Below, piece by piece: positions 35,644 through 43,809 of a stretch of DNA of 64,000 nucleotides. The translations under genes and the position numbers were made by a program. The notes beneath the pieces are model-generated. The model saw only the letters and a program-made list of their open reading frames with translations, was not told the DNA's origin and made no database searches. Numbering within the stretch: the stretch's first letter is position 1; each line of letters starts with the position of its first letter. This stretch comes from Cellulomonas dongxiuzhuiae (lineage in GTDB: Bacteria; Actinomycetota; Actinomycetes; Actinomycetales; Cellulomonadaceae). The stretch is from positions 2,914,001 through 2,978,000 of the forward strand of contig NZ_CP076023.1 in NCBI RefSeq assembly GCF_018623035.1, in the 5' to 3' direction.

Positions 35644-36033
35644 TCACTTGAGGGTGATCGTCGCGCCGGCGCCCTCGAGGGCAGCCTTGGCCTTCTCGGC
35701 CGTCTCCTTGTTGACACCCTCCAGGACCGGCTTCGGCGCGCCGTCGACGAGGTCCTTGGCCTCCTTCAGGCCGAGGCTCGTGAGCGTGCGCACCTCCTTG
35801 ATGACCTGGATCTTCTTGTCACCGGCGGCCTCGAGGACGACGTCGAACGAGTCCTTCTCCTCCTCGACCTCGGCCTCGGCGCCACCGCCGGCCGGGCCGG
35901 CGACGGCCACGGCGGCGGGAGCAGCGGCGGTGACCTCGAAGGTCTCCTCGAACGCCTTCACGAAGTCGGACAGCTCGATGAGCGTGAGGTCCTTGAACGC
36001 GTCGATGAGCTCGTCGGTGGTGAGCTTCGCCAT
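35644..36033 (-). CDS. rplL: 50S ribosomal protein L7/L12
   Basis: The 129-residue stalk protein has the N-terminal dimerisation helices ([22 protein letters not shown]), an Ala/Gly hinge at about 47-62 and the C-terminal factor-binding domain ([20 protein letters not shown]). It recruits EF-Tu, EF-G and IF-2. It follows rplJ by 94 nt. Confidence 0.99.
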
Positions 36034-36127
36034 GGTGGCGGTTCCTTCCGTTCGGACCCGCCGCCCGGTGGTCGGGCGGTGGGAGGTGCTGGGGTTGCTA
36101 CGAGAACGTGCGGCCGGAGCGTCGGGC

Positions 36128-36658
36128 TCAGGCTGCGGCGTCGGACTCCTCGCGCTTGACGCGCAGGGCCTCGACGGTGCGCACGGCCTGCGAGGCAGGA
36201 GCCGTGAACAGGTACGCGGCCTGGTAGAGCTTGGCCTTCATGACGCCTGCGGCCTTGGCCAGCAGGACCTCGCGGGACTCGAGGTCCGCGAGCTTGGTGA
36301 TGTCCGCAGCGGTCACGGGGCGGCCGTCGACGACGCCCGCCTTGATGACCAGTGCAGGGTTCGCCTTGGCGAAGTCACGCAGTCCCTTGGCCGCCTCGAC
36401 CGGGTCACCGGTGACGAAGGCGATCGCCGACGGGCCCTCGAGCACGTCGTCGAGGCCCTCGAGGCCGGCTTCCTTGGCCGCGATCGCGGTCAGCGTGTTC
36501 TTCACCACGGCGTAGTTCGCGTTGCCGCTGAGCGCCTTGCGCAGGGTCTTGAGCTGCGCAACGGTGAGCCCGCGGTACTCGGTCAGCACGGCCGCGTTCG
36601 AGCCGCGGAAGCGCTCCGTCAGCTCCGCGACAGCGGCAGCCTTGTCCGGCCTCGCCAT
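36128..36658 (-). CDS. rplJ: 50S ribosomal protein L10
   Basis: The 176-residue protein forms the base of the L7/L12 stalk. [17 protein letters not shown] and [14 protein letters not shown] are typical, and the C-terminal helix binds L12 dimers. L10-L12 complexes normally repress their own mRNA by binding the leader. The leader here (36659-36880) contains a strong hairpin. Confidence 0.98.
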
Positions 36659-36957: not shown

Positions 36958-39624
36958 TCACGCCGCGCCGTGGGCGCTGAACGTGCACCAGTTGACGAAC
37001 CCCGCGGGGGTGTCCCGGTCGATCTCTCCCCGCGCGCCGTGCAGCGCCCTCGCCATGGTCTGCCCCACCGCGAGCCGCCGGTGCAGCGCGAGCATGAGGT
37101 CGACGACCTCGACGTCCGGCACCGCGGCGATCGACGCGACGACGCCCGCGGTCCCCCGCGACAGCATGGCTGACACCAGCCCGAGCACCTCGTCGCCCTC
37201 GTACGCCACGTCCGCGCCGGAGTGGCACGAGGCGAGCACCAGGCGCCGCGGGGCGACCCCGGCCCGGTGCAGCTCCTGCACCGTGACGGGCCCGTCGGCC
37301 AGCACGACCGACGAGAACATGGGGTTGTCCGAGCGCAGCGCGCCATGACAGGCGAGGTGCGCCAGCTCGGCGCGTCCGATCTCCGCCACCACGGCGTCGG
37401 CACGGCTCTGCGCCGCGCCCAGGACACGGACCGCCGGGTGCAGGGCACGCAACGCCTCGACCTCGTCCCCCGCACCCCGCAGGTCCGGCCCGGCCACCAG
37501 GACCACCGGCATCCCCGGGTCGGGTGCGCGTGCCAGCGTCCGCATCCACGCGGTCGCCGACGGCGCGAGCGCCACCGGTCCGTCGTGCAGCGCGGACCAG
37601 GGCGCGCCGTGCAGGACGCCCACCGGCACGACGACGAGCTCGTCGTCGTGCCGCACGCCGAGCGGCGCGACCAGCACCGCCCGCAGCTGCGCGATGCGCA
37701 GGTCGGCGCTCGCCCGCGCCGCCTCGGCCGCCGCGCGGCTGCTGGGGTCGACCATGCGACGCAGCGCGAAGACGAGCGCCTGCAGGGTGCCGGCGACGAG
37801 ACCCGCGACGGTGCCGAGGTCCACGACCCGGGCACGCGCGGCGTCGACCACGACCGCGACCACGCGGTCCCCGTACCGCCCGTACTCGACGAGGACCCGC
37901 CCGCCCAGCGCGCGCCGGACCGTGCCGAGGCCGGGCACCAGGGTCGCGGACCCCCCGGAGGACACGTCCTCGAGCCACGCCGAACGACGGGTGTCGGCCG
38001 CGAGGTCGTCGTCCGCGACGATCACGGATCCCCGACGGGCCGGGCCCGGACCGGGCACCTCACGGGGCGCCCGCGCCGCAGGTCGCGACACGTGGACCGG
38101 CGTGCCTGCCCCCGCCGGGACGAGCTCGAGCGCCGCCCCACGGGTCTGCTCCATCCAGCGCAGGACGGCCGCCGGTGACCCGCGACGCACGACCACGTCG
38201 AGCCCGAGCTCTCCGAGCTCGGCGCCGTGGCCCGACGCGAGCGCCCGCAGCTCCATCGTCGGCAGCGTGGCCCGGTGCCGCGCCAGGTCGCGCAGGCCCG
38301 CGCGGCACTCGGCGAGCAGGGCGTCGTCCAGGCCCCGGAGCCGGGCCGCGAGCGCGGCTGCGATCCTGCCCCGCAGCCGCACCGACAGCGGCCCGCCACG
38401 CGCGAGGTCGGCCGCGGCGTCGTACCGAGCGACCGCGCGACGGTGCGCGCCGAGCGCGGCCGCGACACGCGCCCCGACGAGGTGCGCGTCGGCACCCTGG
38501 GCCAGCTCGCCCGACCGCGTGAGCCGCATCGCCGCACGCTGCACCGACGCCAGCTCGGGGGCTCCCGCGCGACCCAGCCGCGTGAGCGCCTGCACCGACA
38601 CCAGGACCGCGCGGTCGTAGGCCCCGGGACGTCCCTGCCGTCGGGCGCGCTCACGCACGACCGCGGCGTGCTCGGCGGCCTGCTCGGCGTCACCCGCGAG
38701 CAGCAGGGTCTCCGCGAGCGAGATCCGCGCGTCGACCTCGAGGAGGTCCGCACCCGCACCCACGATCTCCTCGAGCGCGCGGCGCCCGGCGGCCGCGGCC
38801 TCGGGCAGCAGCCGCAGCTCCCGCATGGTCTCGGCGTACTGGAGGTAGTACTCCCCCGGCGACTGGCCGGCCTCCTGCAGAGCCCGCGCCGCCGCGTCGA
38901 GGTCCCGCAGGCCCTGGGCCAGCCGCCCGGTGTGGACCTCGATGAGCGAGCGGGTGAGGTACGGCCACGACCGCAGCGCGGGCCCGAGCCTGGCCGCGCC
39001 GTCGACCGCGGCCTGGGCCCAGAGCAGCGCCTCGGAGTACTCGGCACGACCCACCAGCACGAGAGCGAGGTTGTTCGCGGCCCGGACGAGGTCCGCGCTG
39101 TCGGCCGCCGCCTCGCGCGCGACGGTCCGGTAGCGCTCCTCGGCGTGCGTGAGCCGCCCCGAGTTGTGGTCCATGACGGCGAGCTGCAGCTGGAGCCGCA
39201 GGTGGAGACCGACCAGGTCCGGGTCGTTCCCCCCGCGCTCGTCGACCACACGCAGCGCCGCCAGCGCGTCCGACCGCGACTGCGCCGTCCGCCCCAGCTC
39301 GAGCCGGGCCACGGACCTGCTCGCGAGCAACCAGGCGCCCACCACGGGCAGGTGCGCGCGACGCGCGACACGTATCGCCTCGCCGAGGATCGTCTCCGCC
39401 GCGGCCGGGTCGCCGTCGTGCCGGTGCAGCACGGCCAGGGCACGCAGTCCCCAGGCGAGCGGCTCCGGCTCGCGCAGGGCCCGGGCGGTGGCGACGACGC
39501 GCGTGGCATCGGGCCGCGCACCGGCGGGGTCCTTGTCGAGCGCGTCCCGCAGCGCCCGCGCGTCCTGCAGCAGGCCCGCGCGCACCTCACCGTCGGACGG
39601 CCCCGCCGGTGTCTCGTGCTGCAC
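36958..39624 (-). CDS. TPR-CHAT domain caspase-like protease
   Basis: The 888-residue cytoplasmic protein has no signal peptide. Residues about 15-480 are helical TPR-like repeats. The C-terminal CHAT peptidase domain (about 600-888) carries the dyad His760 (LAHLACHGALRSD) and Cys800 (LVLASCHSGAD), plus SDNPMFSSVVLAD and GLVSAMLSRGTAGVVAS strands typical of the family. CHAT proteases include the type III-E CRISPR effector and gasdermin-activating enzymes. Start: GTG 39624. It diverges from a subtilase and sigma factor gene, which points to a joint proteolytic module. The substrate is unknown. Confidence 0.9.
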   Translation of the reverse strand: MQHETPAGPSDGEVRAGLLQDARALRDALDKDPAGARPDATRVVATARALREPEPLAWGLRALAVLHRHDGDPAAAETILGEAIRVARRAHLPVVGAWLLASRSVARLELGRTAQSRSDALAALRVVDERGGNDPDLVGLHLRLQLQLAVMDHNSGRLTHAEERYRTVAREAAADSADLVRAANNLALVLVGRAEYSEALLWAQAAVDGAARLGPALRSWPYLTRSLIEVHTGRLAQGLRDLDAAARALQEAGQSPGEYYLQYAETMRELRLLPEAAAAGRRALEEIVGAGADLLEVDARISLAETLLLAGDAEQAAEHAAVVRERARRQGRPGAYDRAVLVSVQALTRLGRAGAPELASVQRAAMRLTRSGELAQGADAHLVGARVAAALGAHRRAVARYDAAADLARGGPLSVRLRGRIAAALAARLRGLDDALLAECRAGLRDLARHRATLPTMELRALASGHGAELGELGLDVVVRRGSPAAVLRWMEQTRGAALELVPAGAGTPVHVSRPAARAPREVPGPGPARRGSVIVADDDLAADTRRSAWLEDVSSGGSATLVPGLGTVRRALGGRVLVEYGRYGDRVVAVVVDAARARVVDLGTVAGLVAGTLQALVFALRRMVDPSSRAAAEAARASADLRIAQLRAVLVAPLGVRHDDELVVVPVGVLHGAPWSALHDGPVALAPSATAWMRTLARAPDPGMPVVLVAGPDLRGAGDEVEALRALHPAVRVLGAAQSRADAVVAEIGRAELAHLACHGALRSDNPMFSSVVLADGPVTVQELHRAGVAPRRLVLASCHSGADVAYEGDEVLGLVSAMLSRGTAGVVASIAAVPDVEVVDLMLALHRRLAVGQTMARALHGARGEIDRDTPAGFVNWCTFSAHGAA

Positions 39625-39630
39625 TCTCGG

Positions 39631-39636
39631 ATCTTA
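39631..39636 (-). promoter_or_regulatory. -10 element for a leaderless CHAT transcript
   Basis: TAAGAT on the minus strand ends 6 nt before the GTG at 39624. Transcription would begin at, or one base from, the start codon. No Shine-Dalgarno sequence is visible, which fits a leaderless mRNA. No -35 consensus accompanies it, so an alternative sigma factor is possible. Confidence 0.4.
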
Positions 39637-39710
39637 GGGTCCGCGATGTATCAGGTGGGCGCCGGGGCGACTCTGCAGCGTGAGACCGACCGAGGACGAG
39701 GAGCACTGAC

Positions 39711-41153
39711 GTGACACGATTCCGGGACCGCGGAGCCGGGCAGCCGTTCGGCGCGGAGTACGAGCAGCGCCTGACCGGAGGCTCGCCCCCGAGGCGCGGG
39801 GCCGAGAGCGCGCCGCGCGGCACACCACGTCCCGTCGTCGGCTACGCCGAGCGCCTGCGCGCCGACCTGTCCCCCGGCGGGGGCGGACCGGACGTCCTGG
39901 CACGCCGGGACGCTGTCGTGGGCCGCCTGCAGGAGGGCTGGTCGAGCCGTGGTGGGGAGCTCGACGTCGTGCGCAACCGCCACGGGTCCGACGTCTTCCC
40001 GGTGGTCGGCGAGCTGCTGGTCGCGCCGTCGACGTGGCAGGACGTCCGCGCGGAGGTGGAGGCGGCCGGGCTCGAGCAGGTCGACCTCGGCCACCCGGAG
40101 CTCGAGGGCCGGATCGTCCGCCTGCGGGCCACCGACCCTCGCCGCGCACGCCGCCTGACGGGCCTCGTCAGCTCGCTGCGGTCGCGGGGGCACGCCGTCT
40201 CACCGTCCTACGTGACGCCGCTGGGCGGCGGACCGATCATGAAACCCACGTCGGGGGCGTTCGCCCCGCAGGTCGCGTCCTTCCGCGAGTACGAGGCGTC
40301 CACCTCCCCACACGGCCAGGGCGTCGTCGTCGCCGTGATCGACACCGGCGTGACGGCCGAGCAGCGCACCGACGGCTGGCTCGGGACCGTGGCGCGCGTG
40401 GCCGTGGACGACCCCACGGACCACGGCGACCAGTCCAACATCGACCCGCTCGACGCCGAGCCGCGGGACGGCTACCTCGACGTCTACGCCGGCCACGGCA
40501 CGTTCGTCGCGGGCATCGTGGCCCAGGTGGCGCCTGCGGCCGAGATCCGCCTGTACAAGGCCGTCGGCCCCGGCGGCGCGGGCAGCGAGCTCGACGTCGC
40601 CTGTGCGCTGATCCGTGCCGTCCGCGACGGCGCGCACGTCGTCAACCTCTCGCTCGGCACGCAGACGCTGTTCGACGAGCCGTCCCTCGCGCTGGGCATC
40701 GCCCTCGACGTGGTGCGCGAGATCGAGGACGAGCGCGGCTGGCCGAGCGTCCTGGTGTCGTCCGCGGGGAACTACGGCGACGACACCCCGACCTGGCCGG
40801 CCGCGTTCGGCCGCGTCATCGCCGTCGGGGGCCTGACCGCCGACCTGCGACCGACCGACTGGTCGAGCAGGGGCTCCTGGGTCGACTTCTCCGCCGTCGG
40901 CGAGGGGGTGCTGTCCACGTTCGTCCGTGGCCGGCAGAACCCGGTGTTCGGCTCCGACCCGCAGGACTTCGGCGCGAACGCCTTCGCCCAGTGGGTGGGC
41001 ACGTCCTTCGCCGCCCCCCAGGTCGCCGGGGCGATCGCACGCACCATGACCGAGCTCGGGGTCGACGGGCCGCAGGCCGTCCACGCTCTTCTCGCCGCCG
41101 GCAAGCCCGTCGCAGGCTTCGGCCGGGCCCTGCAGATCCTCCCGGGAGCCTGA
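39711..41153 (+). CDS. intracellular S8-family subtilisin-like serine protease
   Basis: The 480-residue protein has the complete triad: Asp211 (VVAVIDTGV), His262 (GHGTFVAG) and Ser432 (GTSFAAPQVAG), with oxyanion Asn354 (SSAGNYGDD). There is no signal peptide and no recognisable I9 propeptide. Residues 1-200 form a distinct N-terminal region with an alpha/beta stretch that may regulate it. Start: GTG 39711 with GAGGAG 8 nt upstream. It diverges from the CHAT gene with an 86-nt shared promoter region and precedes a sigma factor gene. Confidence 0.92.
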   Translation: MTRFRDRGAGQPFGAEYEQRLTGGSPPRRGAESAPRGTPRPVVGYAERLRADLSPGGGGPDVLARRDAVVGRLQEGWSSRGGELDVVRNRHGSDVFPVVGELLVAPSTWQDVRAEVEAAGLEQVDLGHPELEGRIVRLRATDPRRARRLTGLVSSLRSRGHAVSPSYVTPLGGGPIMKPTSGAFAPQVASFREYEASTSPHGQGVVVAVIDTGVTAEQRTDGWLGTVARVAVDDPTDHGDQSNIDPLDAEPRDGYLDVYAGHGTFVAGIVAQVAPAAEIRLYKAVGPGGAGSELDVACALIRAVRDGAHVVNLSLGTQTLFDEPSLALGIALDVVREIEDERGWPSVLVSSAGNYGDDTPTWPAAFGRVIAVGGLTADLRPTDWSSRGSWVDFSAVGEGVLSTFVRGRQNPVFGSDPQDFGANAFAQWVGTSFAAPQVAGAIARTMTELGVDGPQAVHALLAAGKPVAGFGRALQILPGA

Positions 41154-41226
41154 CGTGCTGGGCACCTGCCTCGTCGAGCGTCATGATGGCCTTCGGGATA
41201 AACCCGACAGGCGAAGGAGCCGTGCC

Positions 41227-41868
41227 GTGAGCAGCCGAGAACAGCTGGGCAGACCGTACGGCGAGCGCACCGCGACACAGCTCGTGGCGGGGGCGCTCAC
41301 GGGCGACGAGGGGTCGTGGTCGGAGATCGTGCGTCGGCACACCAACCTCGTGATGTCCCGGGTCCGGCAGTTCCGGCTCACCCCGCAGCAGGCGGAGGAC
41401 GTCGCGCAGACCGTGTGGCTCAACCTCCTGGAGCACCTGGGGGACCTGCGCGAGCCGGAGGCGCTGCCGGGGTGGATCTCCACCGCGACCCGGCACGAGT
41501 GCATCCGCATGTCGAACCTCGCGCGACGGTCGATCCCCGTCGACCCGACGACCGGGCGGCTCGACGCCCAGGACGACGCCGAGCTCGACGACGAGCTGCT
41601 GCGCGGCGAGCGGCACGCGGCGCTGCGGGCCGCGCTGGCCGAGCTGCCGGCGCACCAGCGGGACCTGCTGCTCCTGCTGTCGACGGACCCGGCGCCCAGC
41701 TACCAGGAGGTGTCCGCACGGCTGGGCATCCCCGTGGGGTCCATCGGTCCCACCCGGCAGCGCGGACTGGCCCGGCTCCGTCAGACGGAGGCCATCCGCA
41801 CCTACCTCGCGACGCCGTCCGGCGCCGTGCTCGGCGAAGGAGGCCACGATGTCCTGGCACTCGGATGA
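41227..41868 (+). CDS. ECF-like sigma-70 family factor
   Basis: The 213-residue factor contains only region 2 (RRHTNLVMSRVRQF, then QQAEDVAQTVWLNLLEHL) and region 4 (LPAHQRDLLLLL ... SYQEVSARLGIPVGSIGPTRQRGLARLR). GTG 41227 with AGGAG 7 nt upstream is preferred over an upstream in-frame start that lacks a ribosome-binding site. The distance from the protease stop is 73 nt. It probably directs transcription of this locus. No classic zinc anti-sigma gene is adjacent. The overlapping next gene takes that position. Confidence 0.9.
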   Translation: MSSREQLGRPYGERTATQLVAGALTGDEGSWSEIVRRHTNLVMSRVRQFRLTPQQAEDVAQTVWLNLLEHLGDLREPEALPGWISTATRHECIRMSNLARRSIPVDPTTGRLDAQDDAELDDELLRGERHAALRAALAELPAHQRDLLLLLSTDPAPSYQEVSARLGIPVGSIGPTRQRGLARLRQTEAIRTYLATPSGAVLGEGGHDVLALG

Positions 41869-42373
41869 CGTGAGCCTCCCGCAGCCACGCCCCGCGAACG
41901 CGTGGGAGGACGACGACGCGCTCGCCGCGGACCTCGTCCAGGCGGTCGCGGAGGAGGACGTGCTGCGCCGGGTCACCGCCGCGGCGTCGACGGCGTTCCA
42001 CGCCCACCGCGGCATGCTCGCCCTGCGCGACGAGCTGGCGACGGACCTGCTGCTGCTCTCCCTCGTCCACGACTCGTGCACCGCGGACGAGCCGGCGGGC
42101 GTCCGTGACCGCAGCGGCCAGCCGTCGCGCACCCTCGTGTTCGAGGGTGAGGGCGTCGGGGTCGAGGTCGAGGTGTCCGACGGCGTGATCGAGGGCCAGC
42201 TCATCCCGGCGCGGCCCGGTCGCGTCGTGCTGCGCCGCCCCGACGGCGACGTCGCGGGTGTCGACACCGACGAGGTGGGGTACTTCCGCCTCGCCGCCCG
42301 CCCCGAGGGGCCGGTGCGGCTGGTCTGCGAGAGCGCGGACGGCACGTGCGTGACCGAATGGCTGCCCTGGTGA
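41849..42373 (+). CDS. small protein with carboxypeptidase-regulatory-like beta domain, coupled to the sigma factor
   Basis: The 174-residue cytoplasmic protein starts at ATG 41849, inside the last 20 bases of the sigma gene, with GAAGGAGG upstream. Residues about 20-75 are helical. From about 95 on, strands (RTLVFEGEGVGVEVEVSDG, GQLIPARPGRVVLRRPDGD, GYFRLAARPEGPVRLVCE) look like a transthyretin/CarboxypepD_reg fold. It has no zinc motif and no membrane segment. Its place suggests an anti-sigma or sensor role, which is inference. Confidence 0.7.
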   Translation: MSWHSDDVSLPQPRPANAWEDDDALAADLVQAVAEEDVLRRVTAAASTAFHAHRGMLALRDELATDLLLLSLVHDSCTADEPAGVRDRSGQPSRTLVFEGEGVGVEVEVSDGVIEGQLIPARPGRVVLRRPDGDVAGVDTDEVGYFRLAARPEGPVRLVCESADGTCVTEWLPW

Positions 42374-42543: not shown

Positions 42544-43260
42544 TCAGGCGGCCTCGTCCTCCGTGAGGTTGCGGGTCTTGCTCTGGTCCAGCGGGATGCC
42601 GGGGCCGTTCGTGGTCGACAGCGTCGCCTTGGCGATGTAGCGACCCTTCGACGACGCCGGCTTCAGACGCAGGATCTCGTCCAGCGCGGCGGCGTAGTTC
42701 TCCACCAGCTGGGTCTCCGAGAAGGAGGCCTTGCCGATGATGAAGTGCAGGTTCGCGTGCCGGTCGACACGGAACTCGATCTTGCCGCCCTTGATGTCGG
42801 ACACGGCCTTGGCCACGTCCATCGTCACGGTGCCGGTCTTCGGGTTCGGCATGAGGCCGCGCGGGCCCAGCACCTTGCCCAGTCGACCGACCTTGCCCAT
42901 GAGGTCCGGCGTCGCGACGGCGGCGTCGAAGTCGGTCCAGCCGTCCGCGACCTTGGCGATGAGGTCGTCGCCGCCGACCTCGTCGGCGCCGGCGGCGCGG
43001 GCCTGCTCGGCACGCTCACCGTTCGCGAACACGATGACGCGGGCCGTCTTGCCGGTGCCGTGGGGCAGGTTGACGGTGCCGCGGACCATCTGGTCGGCCT
43101 TGCGGGGGTCGACACCGAGACGGAACGCGACCTCGACGGTCGAGTCGTACTTGGTGGTCGAGGTCTCCTTGGCGAGGCGCACGGCCTCGAGCGGCGTGTA
43201 GATCCGGTCCGCCTCGAGCTTCTCGGCGGCGGCGCGGTACGCCTTGCTGTGCTTGGGCAT
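42544..43260 (-). CDS. rplA: 50S ribosomal protein L1
   Basis: The 238-residue protein forms the L1 stalk that handles E-site tRNA and represses rplKA translation in E. coli. [14 protein letters not shown] and the signature [21 protein letters not shown] are present. ATG 43260 is used because the preceding in-frame codons lie in the intergenic gap and show no L1 character. Confidence 0.99.
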
Positions 43261-43377
43261 CTGCCTGTGTCTCCTTGTGTCAGCAGTCGTGGTCATCCGG
43301 GCCGCACACGGGCCCTGCCACCTGTCGGCGAGCGCAGGTCGCGCTCGCCGACACGTCTTTCAGGACGGAGCGGACGC

Positions 43378-43809
43378 TCAGCCCTCGACCTTGATGCCCA
43401 TCGACCGGGCGGTGCCGGCGATGATCTTCTCGGCCGAGGCCAGGTCGTTCGCGTTGAGGTCCTCGAGCTTGGTGCTGGCGATCTCGCGCACCTGGTCGGC
43501 CGACAGCGTGCCGACCTTGACGGTGTGCGGCGTCGGCGAGCCCTTGGCCACGCCCGCGGCCTTCTTGATGAGCTCGGCGGCCGGCGGCGTCTTCGTGATG
43601 AAGGTGAACGAGCGGTCCTCGTACACCGTGATCTCGACGGGGATGACGTTGCCGCGCTGCGACTCGGTCGCCGCGTTGTACGCCTTGCAGAACTCCATGA
43701 TGTTGACGCCGTGCTGGCCCAGCGCGGGGCCGATCGGCGGCGCGGGGGTCGCGGCACCGGCGTTGATCTGGAGCTTGATCAGCCCGGTGACCTTCTTCTT
43801 GGGGGGCAT
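43378..43809 (-). CDS. rplK: 50S ribosomal protein L11
   Basis: The 143-residue protein binds the GTPase-associated centre of 23S rRNA and is needed for stringent activation of Rel. [18 protein letters not shown] and the proline-rich [14 protein letters not shown] motif are conserved. Confidence 0.99.

Follow-up and report, generated by a model that had tools for sequence, protein, structure and literature searches.

Protease-controlled release of sigma factors is known in bacteria from the CalpL-type protease-released sigma systems, to which CalpT/CalpS belong. Csx29, the TPR-CHAT protease of type III-E CRISPR, cleaves Csx30, which inhibits an extracytoplasmic function (ECF)-like sigma factor (PMC10028731), and RseA/DegS, as cited in the same paper, is a case in which a sigma factor is freed by proteolysis of its inhibitor. 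Proteolytic activation with transcription as the output has been proposed for EACC2-caspase systems with ECF sigma factor and TPR genes (PMC8195603). For the group ECF54, a 2022 review (PMC8999054, citing Casas-Pastor 2021 and Huang 2015) gives a proposal of proteolytic control without an anti-sigma factor, drawn from conserved neighbouring genes for a carboxypeptidase, a subtilase and a CHAT protein. Here, we analysed a locus with genes for a TPR-CHAT protease, an S8 subtilase, an ECF-type sigma factor and a small protein, SML, in Cellulomonas dongxiuzhuiae. It lies in a 64,000-nucleotide stretch (2914001-2978000, "the window") of a 3.98 Mb single-contig genome. An earlier sequence-only reading of the window had taken this layout to be undescribed, which is not so, as the 2022 review lists CHAT, subtilase and carboxypeptidase neighbours for ECF54. 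The module is real, conserved and partly described before. Our preferred reading, with a probability of roughly 45%, is a protease-controlled ECF sigma switch, in which SML would restrain the sigma factor, the CHAT protease would relieve this restraint, and the sigma factor would then make the second protease.

The four reading frames, with divergent CHAT and S8 genes and a sigma factor gene overlapping that of the small protein, were confirmed where the sequence-only reading had placed them, the start of SML overlapping the stop of the sigma factor gene by 20 bases. For the sigma factor, a codon-based gene caller picked GTG 41227 as a likelier start than 41155. The features of the locus, in window coordinates, are:

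36958..39624, minus strand: TPR-CHAT protease of 888 residues, with a TPR-like N-terminal part, a CHAT domain (646-880) and catalytic His760 and Cys800
39647..39653, plus strand: -35-like element TGTATCA of the candidate promoter of the module sigma factor, directed at the S8 gene
39671..39674, plus strand: -10-like element CTCT of the same candidate promoter, after a 17-nt spacer
39711..41153, plus strand: second protease, an S8 subtilase of 480 residues, with an N-terminal part of ~200 residues and a catalytic domain at 202-456 (D211, H262, N354, S432)
41156..41189, plus strand: second element upstream of the sigma factor gene, TGCTGGGCAC ... CATGATGG, possibly a housekeeping promoter
41227..41868, plus strand: ECF-type sigma factor of 213 residues from GTG 41227, with a longer frame listed from 41155
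41849..42373, plus strand: SML, small protein of 174 residues and candidate anti-sigma factor, with predicted helices at 22-34 and 36-62 and a predicted beta-sandwich at 94-169

The CHAT protein matches the Pfam model CHAT (1.7e-28, residues 646-880), and is the only CHAT-domain match in the genome, while the subtilase matches Peptidase_S8 (2.5e-29, residues 202-456). The sigma factor is of the ECF type with regions 2 and 4, according to its Pfam and NCBIfam matches (Sigma70_r2, 1e-9; sigma70-ECF, 1.7e-16, above the cut-off). From the label TPR-CHAT, the CHAT part stands and the TPR part is weaker (TPR_12, 5e-5, under its cut-off). Both proteases have complete catalytic residues, as had been stated (CHAT H760 and C800; S8 D211, H262, N354 and S432). 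The CHAT His and Cys are unchanged in 44/44 alignable relatives (51 fragments; loci L032-L091) and invariant in all 46 proteins of a second alignment, and the S8 residues are unchanged where alignable in the same loci (Asp 41/41, His and Asn 47/47 each, Ser 46/46). Loss of catalytic residues in most homologues, which would have spoken against a proteolytic system, is thus not the case. Neither protease has an N-terminal hydrophobic stretch, in agreement with the claim that signal peptides are absent. By crude hydropathy, a 19-residue stretch of the CHAT protein at position 603 (mean hydropathy 1.87) could pass for a membrane segment, so that the cytoplasmic location that had been claimed for both proteases is likely rather than certain.

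For a broader view of the module, the window SML was searched in same-family genomes (found in 45 of 150) and a profile built from 14 sequences in genomes of the phylum, where the distribution is patchy (46 of 396 sampled genomes). From these hits, 20 loci of the same-family set and 40 of the phylum set were fetched, and a CHAT-only sample comprised 80 named loci, the best of 328 relatives. Closely related loci and at least one duplicate pair (L151 = L152) are part of the samples, and all counts are unthinned for kinship. Searching with the window proteins (tblastn) recovered the four genes in 17 of the 20 same-family loci, the remaining three being cut inside the CHAT gene, and profiles built from the loci recovered them in 20/20 same-family and 25/40 other SML-found loci. 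Among the 80 CHAT-found loci, 64 contain all four genes, eight lack one gene, and eight have CHAT alone; in all of the latter, the 5' end of the CHAT gene lies no more than ~550 bases from a contig end. In total, the four genes occur together in 109 of 140 loci and in 13 different arrangements (50 loci are arranged as in the window). The sequence-only reading had held that it would fail if the four genes were not conserved together elsewhere, and this is not what we found. Their staying together through many rearrangements suggests a shared function rather than mere common descent of the block, and we consider them to form, as far as gene neighbourhoods can tell, one conserved unit. The closest named relatives at the locus are Cellulomonas (CHAT part 86 to 69% identical), and the module is also found in genomes judged to be Streptomyces by their likeness to the named locus L138.

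Some loci deviate from this composition. In L142, the CHAT gene is followed by DUF58 and transglutaminase genes (Pfam) and, by eye, a MoxR-like gene. Ten proteins from six SML loci without CHAT were mostly housekeeping enzymes, the exceptions being a protease-like protein (L140) and another sigma factor (L080:7176-8111), which has a SnoaL-like part and adjoins an SML gene without the module sigma factor.

A candidate promoter and its targets

The loci share a candidate ECF-type promoter, [CT]GTATC[AT] - 15-18 nt - CTC. Its first block, GTATCA, occurs in the intergenic DNA upstream of genes in 64 of the 140 loci, compared to 5.8 expected from shuffles. We aligned 41 non-redundant sites (of 65) that had been chosen on [CT]GTATC[AT] alone upstream of sigma factor, S8 or SML genes, with CHAT genes excluded, and a second block, CTC[CT], appeared 16 nt downstream (CTCC positions found in 30, 28, 30 and 25 of the 41 sites). 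A distance of 16 nt between the blocks corresponds to ECF-like spacing. Under a strict scoring that required both blocks, a spacer of 15-18 nt and a distance of no more than 300 bases before a gene, sites precede the sigma factor or S8 gene in 33/70 CHAT-found and 29/55 SML-found loci. They are absent before CHAT (0/70 and 0/48, respectively), nearly so before SML (0/71 and 2/58) and infrequent before unlabelled neighbours (24/904 and 10/449), and the mirrored control pattern gave 0 matches. In the window, the site (TGTATCA at 39647-39653, 17 nt, CTCT at 39671-39674) is directed at the S8 gene.

The position of the element before the sigma factor or S8 gene and never before CHAT points to self-amplification. 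We infer that the module's own sigma factor reads it, and the proposal of the sequence-only reading that the sigma factor induces the locus is, on this pattern, probably correct. In the window arrangement, CHAT lies outside this control, which fits a sensor that is present beforehand; in colinear loci (e.g. L045, L048-L050), CHAT may be co-transcribed. Another candidate for the module promoter, the element at 41156-41189 (TGCTGGGCAC...CATGATGG), was rejected: it is conserved in most Cellulomonas loci compared and has one exact match in the genome, was not seen in the other genera compared, and has housekeeping-like hexamers.

Across 38 same-family genomes with SML, the pattern TGTATCA-N16-17-CTC occurs 44 times, with 26 sites, in 26 genomes, located no more than 3 kb from SML. 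The mirrored pattern gave 28 matches, more than the other 18 sites, and a wider regulon was not seen in these genomes. The predicted same-family regulon would thus be essentially the module itself. For the source genome, a wider regulon was likewise rejected, since GTATCA-N15-18-CTCY gave three sites, one of them at the module, compared to two control matches; by our own reading, one of the two off-module sites is apparently inside a helix-turn-helix gene and the other precedes a gene for a secreted-looking protein.

A regulon confined to the module would also suit a stress-proteolysis or developmental programme, in which the second protease clears damaged or stage-specific proteins and the circuit is a positive-feedback switch. 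The presence of the module in presumed Streptomyces and of a LuxR-type gene behind a further site in L072, L075, L078 and L138 is in line with such a role, whereas the patchy distribution of SML in the phylum speaks against it, and we regard this explanation as somewhat unlikely.

Genomes in which the module is split allow the promoter assignment to be examined in trans. CHAT is not adjacent to the sigma factor and SML genes in seven genomes, and was found elsewhere in six of them (nine genomes were searched, eight of which had CHAT). Four of the twelve stretches fetched (L278, L279, L280 and L287) have the bipartite site between divergent CHAT and S8 genes, directed at S8, and in L281 the remote site is directed at a trypsin-like gene. 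The cleanest cases are L278 and L279, as the genomes of L280 and L287 contain a further complete set (L286 and L081) and that of L281 has its sigma factor and SML genes at a contig end (L058). In L282, the site precedes another, weakly matching subtilase.

Several further genes lie behind sites of this type. Loci of the Nocardioides type (L112, L113, L124, L125, L129, L139, L148, L157) have a divergent gene of ~130 codons (MTW..E..PWREEW) upstream of the sigma factor gene with its own GTATCA-CTC site, and two members that were scanned gave no Pfam match. In L072 (13413-15353), L075, L078 and L138, a gene next to CHAT encodes a LuxR-type regulator, whose AAA-like part was below the cut-off in the two scanned, and starts 34-55 nt from where a GTATCA-CTC site begins. 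The gene of a MoxR-type AAA ATPase starts 87 nt from a TGTATCA-N16-CTC site in L179 (G020), and short genes with CPxC-type motifs, recognised by eye, follow module-type sites in L140 (4983-5273) and L137 (2164-2505). Several off-module sites occur in a set of 25 further genomes; two pairs of them are alike between two species each, L181/L192 (G115, G102) and L187/L204 (G483, G395), and are possible further targets.

SML and the proposed control of the sigma factor

On its own, the window SML has no significant match in Pfam. In an alignment of the family, 20 of 50 members match CarboxypepD_reg at E <= 0.01 (best 2.7e-7), which agrees with the description of the small protein as a beta-domain protein. 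In alignments of 14 and 50 members, the N-terminal part is helical and the C-terminal part is of the beta type. The predicted structure (mean predicted local distance difference test score 85.3, predicted template modelling score 0.65) likewise places helices at 22-34 and 36-62, with most of the strands at 94-169. A PDB fold search with this model returned 1111 matches at E <= 10, none of them at 1e-3 or better. An assignment of SML to a known family by Pfam, NCBIfam, PADLOC and PDB sequences and folds was thus rejected, with only a weak, carboxypeptidase-regulatory-like beta-sandwich emerging.

The genomic link to the sigma factor, which the sequence-only reading had drawn from the window, is backed by the wider sample: SML lies directly 3' of the sigma factor gene on the same strand in 116 of 136 SML hits. 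Pairwise distances over 94 loci (one copy each) also correlate best for the sigma factor and SML (r 0.884, partial 0.606), followed by S8 and CHAT (partial 0.490), with a partial correlation of 0.003 for the sigma factor and S8; such correlations may arise from linkage alone, and they rank pairs but prove no contact. On the basis of this pairing, we take SML to be a candidate anti-sigma factor of the module.

In the resting state of the proposed switch, SML would bind and hold the sigma factor, and CHAT would, in the window arrangement, be made independently of it. A signal sensed by the TPR part would activate the CHAT protease, which would cleave SML or make it release the sigma factor. The freed sigma factor would then recognise [CT]GTATC[AT]-N15-18-CTC before the gene of the second protease or before its own operon, so that the amounts of sigma factor and SML would rise and the second protease, in this case the S8 subtilase, would be produced in a burst. 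This protease would be the circuit's output and may also hasten the removal of SML. Comparative sequence data argue for the four-gene unit, the pairing of the sigma factor with SML, the promoter-like element with its targets and the exchange of the second protease. The action of CHAT on SML is suggested by analogy with Csx29, which cleaves Csx30 (PMC10028731), and the trigger and the substrates of the second protease are conjectured within the same scheme. Activation of one protease by the other, part of the model in the sequence-only reading, is equally conjectural.

In addition to the limits of the distance correlations, a number of observations weigh against this switch. Neither the sequence nor the fold of SML places it in a known anti-sigma family, and the published ECF54 proposal differs in having no anti-sigma factor and in making the sigma factor itself the target of proteolysis (PMC8999054). 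A strict promoter match is absent in about half of the loci (37/70 and 26/55), among the 25 further genomes, 11 carry SML and 8 of these have the module site, and L284, L285, L286 and L288 have CHAT and S8 genes with no strict site. One of the seven genomes with a split module (G535) yielded no CHAT at all, and the sigma factor gene is not in the fetched stretch of L115, L117 and L136, despite the presence of CHAT, S8 and SML. Finally, a looser pattern gave 100 sites in the seven split-module genomes compared to 40 control matches, which implies further targets in these genomes or a control that is set too low.

Some of these points would fit the published alternative, in which degradation by the proteases keeps the level of the sigma factor low, and SML would be an adaptor or a protease cofactor. 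Such proteolysis is presented as a proposal for ECF54 in section 3.3 of PMC8999054, and it is compatible with SML accompanying CHAT and S8 in the three loci without a sigma factor gene, as well as with L052 and L060, where CHAT and S8 are duplicated and extra SML genes stand beside them, with one sigma factor in the stretch. By contrast, with the second protease under the sigma factor, as the candidate promoter indicates, degradation would amount to negative feedback. Moreover, sigma factor and SML genes occur without adjoining CHAT or S8 genes in L057, L058 (at a contig end), L062, L063, L067, L087 and L088, and they are the tightest pair of the module. We consider control by degradation unlikely.

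The second protease and its repeats

By our own reading of the frames, the four genes of the window sit between ribosomal-protein genes, rplJ-rplL (35644-36658, minus strand) and rplA-rplK (42544-43809, minus strand). Of 11 further genomes from the genus, seven have sigma factor, SML and CHAT genes in this rplA-rplJ interval, but with a divergent trypsin-like protease gene (L294-L300). In L301, rplA and rplJ are side by side and the module is located elsewhere in the genome (L051), and the fetched pieces L291-L293 contain neither the module nor rplA. Trypsin-like genes were found in 12 loci, of which 11 are distinct (L070 and L140 are the same sequence), and the bipartite site is upstream of 10 of these 11. 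Their identity derives from matches to the Pfam models Nal1_C, Nal1 N-terminal or trypsin, all of them weak. A named Cellulomonas metagenome-assembled genome (L095) has both the window-type module and a second set of sigma factor, SML and CHAT genes with a trypsin-like gene. The second protease thus appears to be exchangeable, with a subtilase or a trypsin-like protease at the same genomic site.

That one site carries, across the genus, two versions whose second proteases are unrelated, as at rapid-exchange sites, could indicate an abortive-infection or cell-death system, with CHAT as the sensor, the sigma factor as the amplifier and the second protease killing the cell. Among the solved structures nearest to CHAT by the CHAT profile, the Craspase/Csx29 chains (5.8e-9 to 8.9e-5) accord with this idea; 8rot (4.8e-12), also among them, is titled only "CHAT domain-containing protein". 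Against it, the window copy lies inside an apparent ribosomal-protein cluster, and PADLOC returned only subtilase/IetS matches at the locus, defence genes nearby not having been searched for. A role in cell death is therefore improbable in our view.

Some of the second proteases carry short tandem repeats. A script run over 109 S8 gene models (a figure unrelated to the 109 four-gene loci) flagged 23, two of which are low-complexity sequences (L084, L133) and 21 of which have near-perfect tandem repeats, mostly of six or seven residues and located before the catalytic domain (NPAYQG, HPMYAG, HPFTQS, HPFWGG). The window S8 gene was not flagged and has no tandem array by eye either. All 11 distinct trypsin-like genes bear repeats by eye, namely PFTE in eight (L095, L294-L300), PHYQ (L140), PYYQ (L281) and PVTRDP (L054). 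Within a gene, the repeat copies often encode an identical peptide with different synonymous bases (mean differences of 0.33 to 2.67 over 15 arrays), suggesting that the peptide is under selection; some arrays are nearly identical in DNA and may be young. As a more speculative extension, the circuit might be a CRISPR-free caspase-sigma system in which unrelated serine proteases, having converged on tandem Pro-aromatic arrays (PFTE, HPFTQS, NPAYQG, PHYQ), occupy the output slot. The array would then either offer a ladder of docking or cleavage sites to TPR-CHAT or SML as a common partner, or store short peptides that proteolysis sets free. In this way, the output protease would report back to the sensor or release peptide signals. 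We consider this unlikely.

In L054 (10971-15974), a module-type promoter is followed by a trypsin-like gene with Thr/Cys repeats and then by APH, HopA1 and LANC_like genes (Pfam). We take this trio, found at one locus, to resemble a class V lanthipeptide synthetase set, and the repeats may even be modified like a lanthipeptide. By eye, an APH-like start is also found in L089.

Comparison with known systems

The window locus shares with ECF54 an ECF sigma factor and the same kinds of neighbouring genes, and the conserved CHAT, subtilase and carboxypeptidase-like genes that mark the neighbourhood of this group are all found here. Judged by gene neighbourhood rather than by the group's sequence model, the module very probably belongs to ECF54. 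The ECF54 section of PMC8999054 makes no mention of a promoter, a trypsin-like replacement or repeats, though the primary papers may include them. In the literature searched, which these primary papers may go beyond, we likewise found no description of the promoter and its close restriction to the module, of the replacement of the second protease at a single genomic site or of the repeats common to both protease types. The promoter makes the idea testable, as it provides a reporter, a list of predicted targets and a route to the trigger of a caspase relative. The exchange of a subtilase for a trypsin-like protease behind one promoter points to "a serine protease" as the output, and the repeats common to both types offer a concrete handle on what links the parts of the module.

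Among the other described systems, EACC2 systems are similar in linking a caspase-fold protease to an ECF sigma factor, and differ in their EACC2, TRADD-N and DUF1822 TPR parts (PMC8195603), none of which was matched at the window locus by Pfam. RseA/DegS and the CalpL-type systems free a sigma factor by proteolysis of its inhibitor, as proposed here, but differ in their protease families, and RseA is a membrane protein. As in the window module, a TPR-CHAT protease is combined in type III-E CRISPR with an ECF-like sigma factor and a partner protein, and the catalytic His and Cys are present in both systems, whereas the window module has a second, serine protease. The window CHAT scores 17.2 bits against the Csx29 model NF041237 of NCBIfam (cut-off 300) and is thus not assigned to Csx29, and Csx30 is not among the 4 PDB profile matches of SML or the 50 fold matches listed of 1111, both of which are weak tests. 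Csx29/Csx30/CASP-sigma (PMC10028731) is nevertheless the closest worked example for the module, and if our reading is true, the protease-released control of a sigma factor by a caspase relative would be a widespread bacterial signalling circuit rather than a CRISPR speciality.

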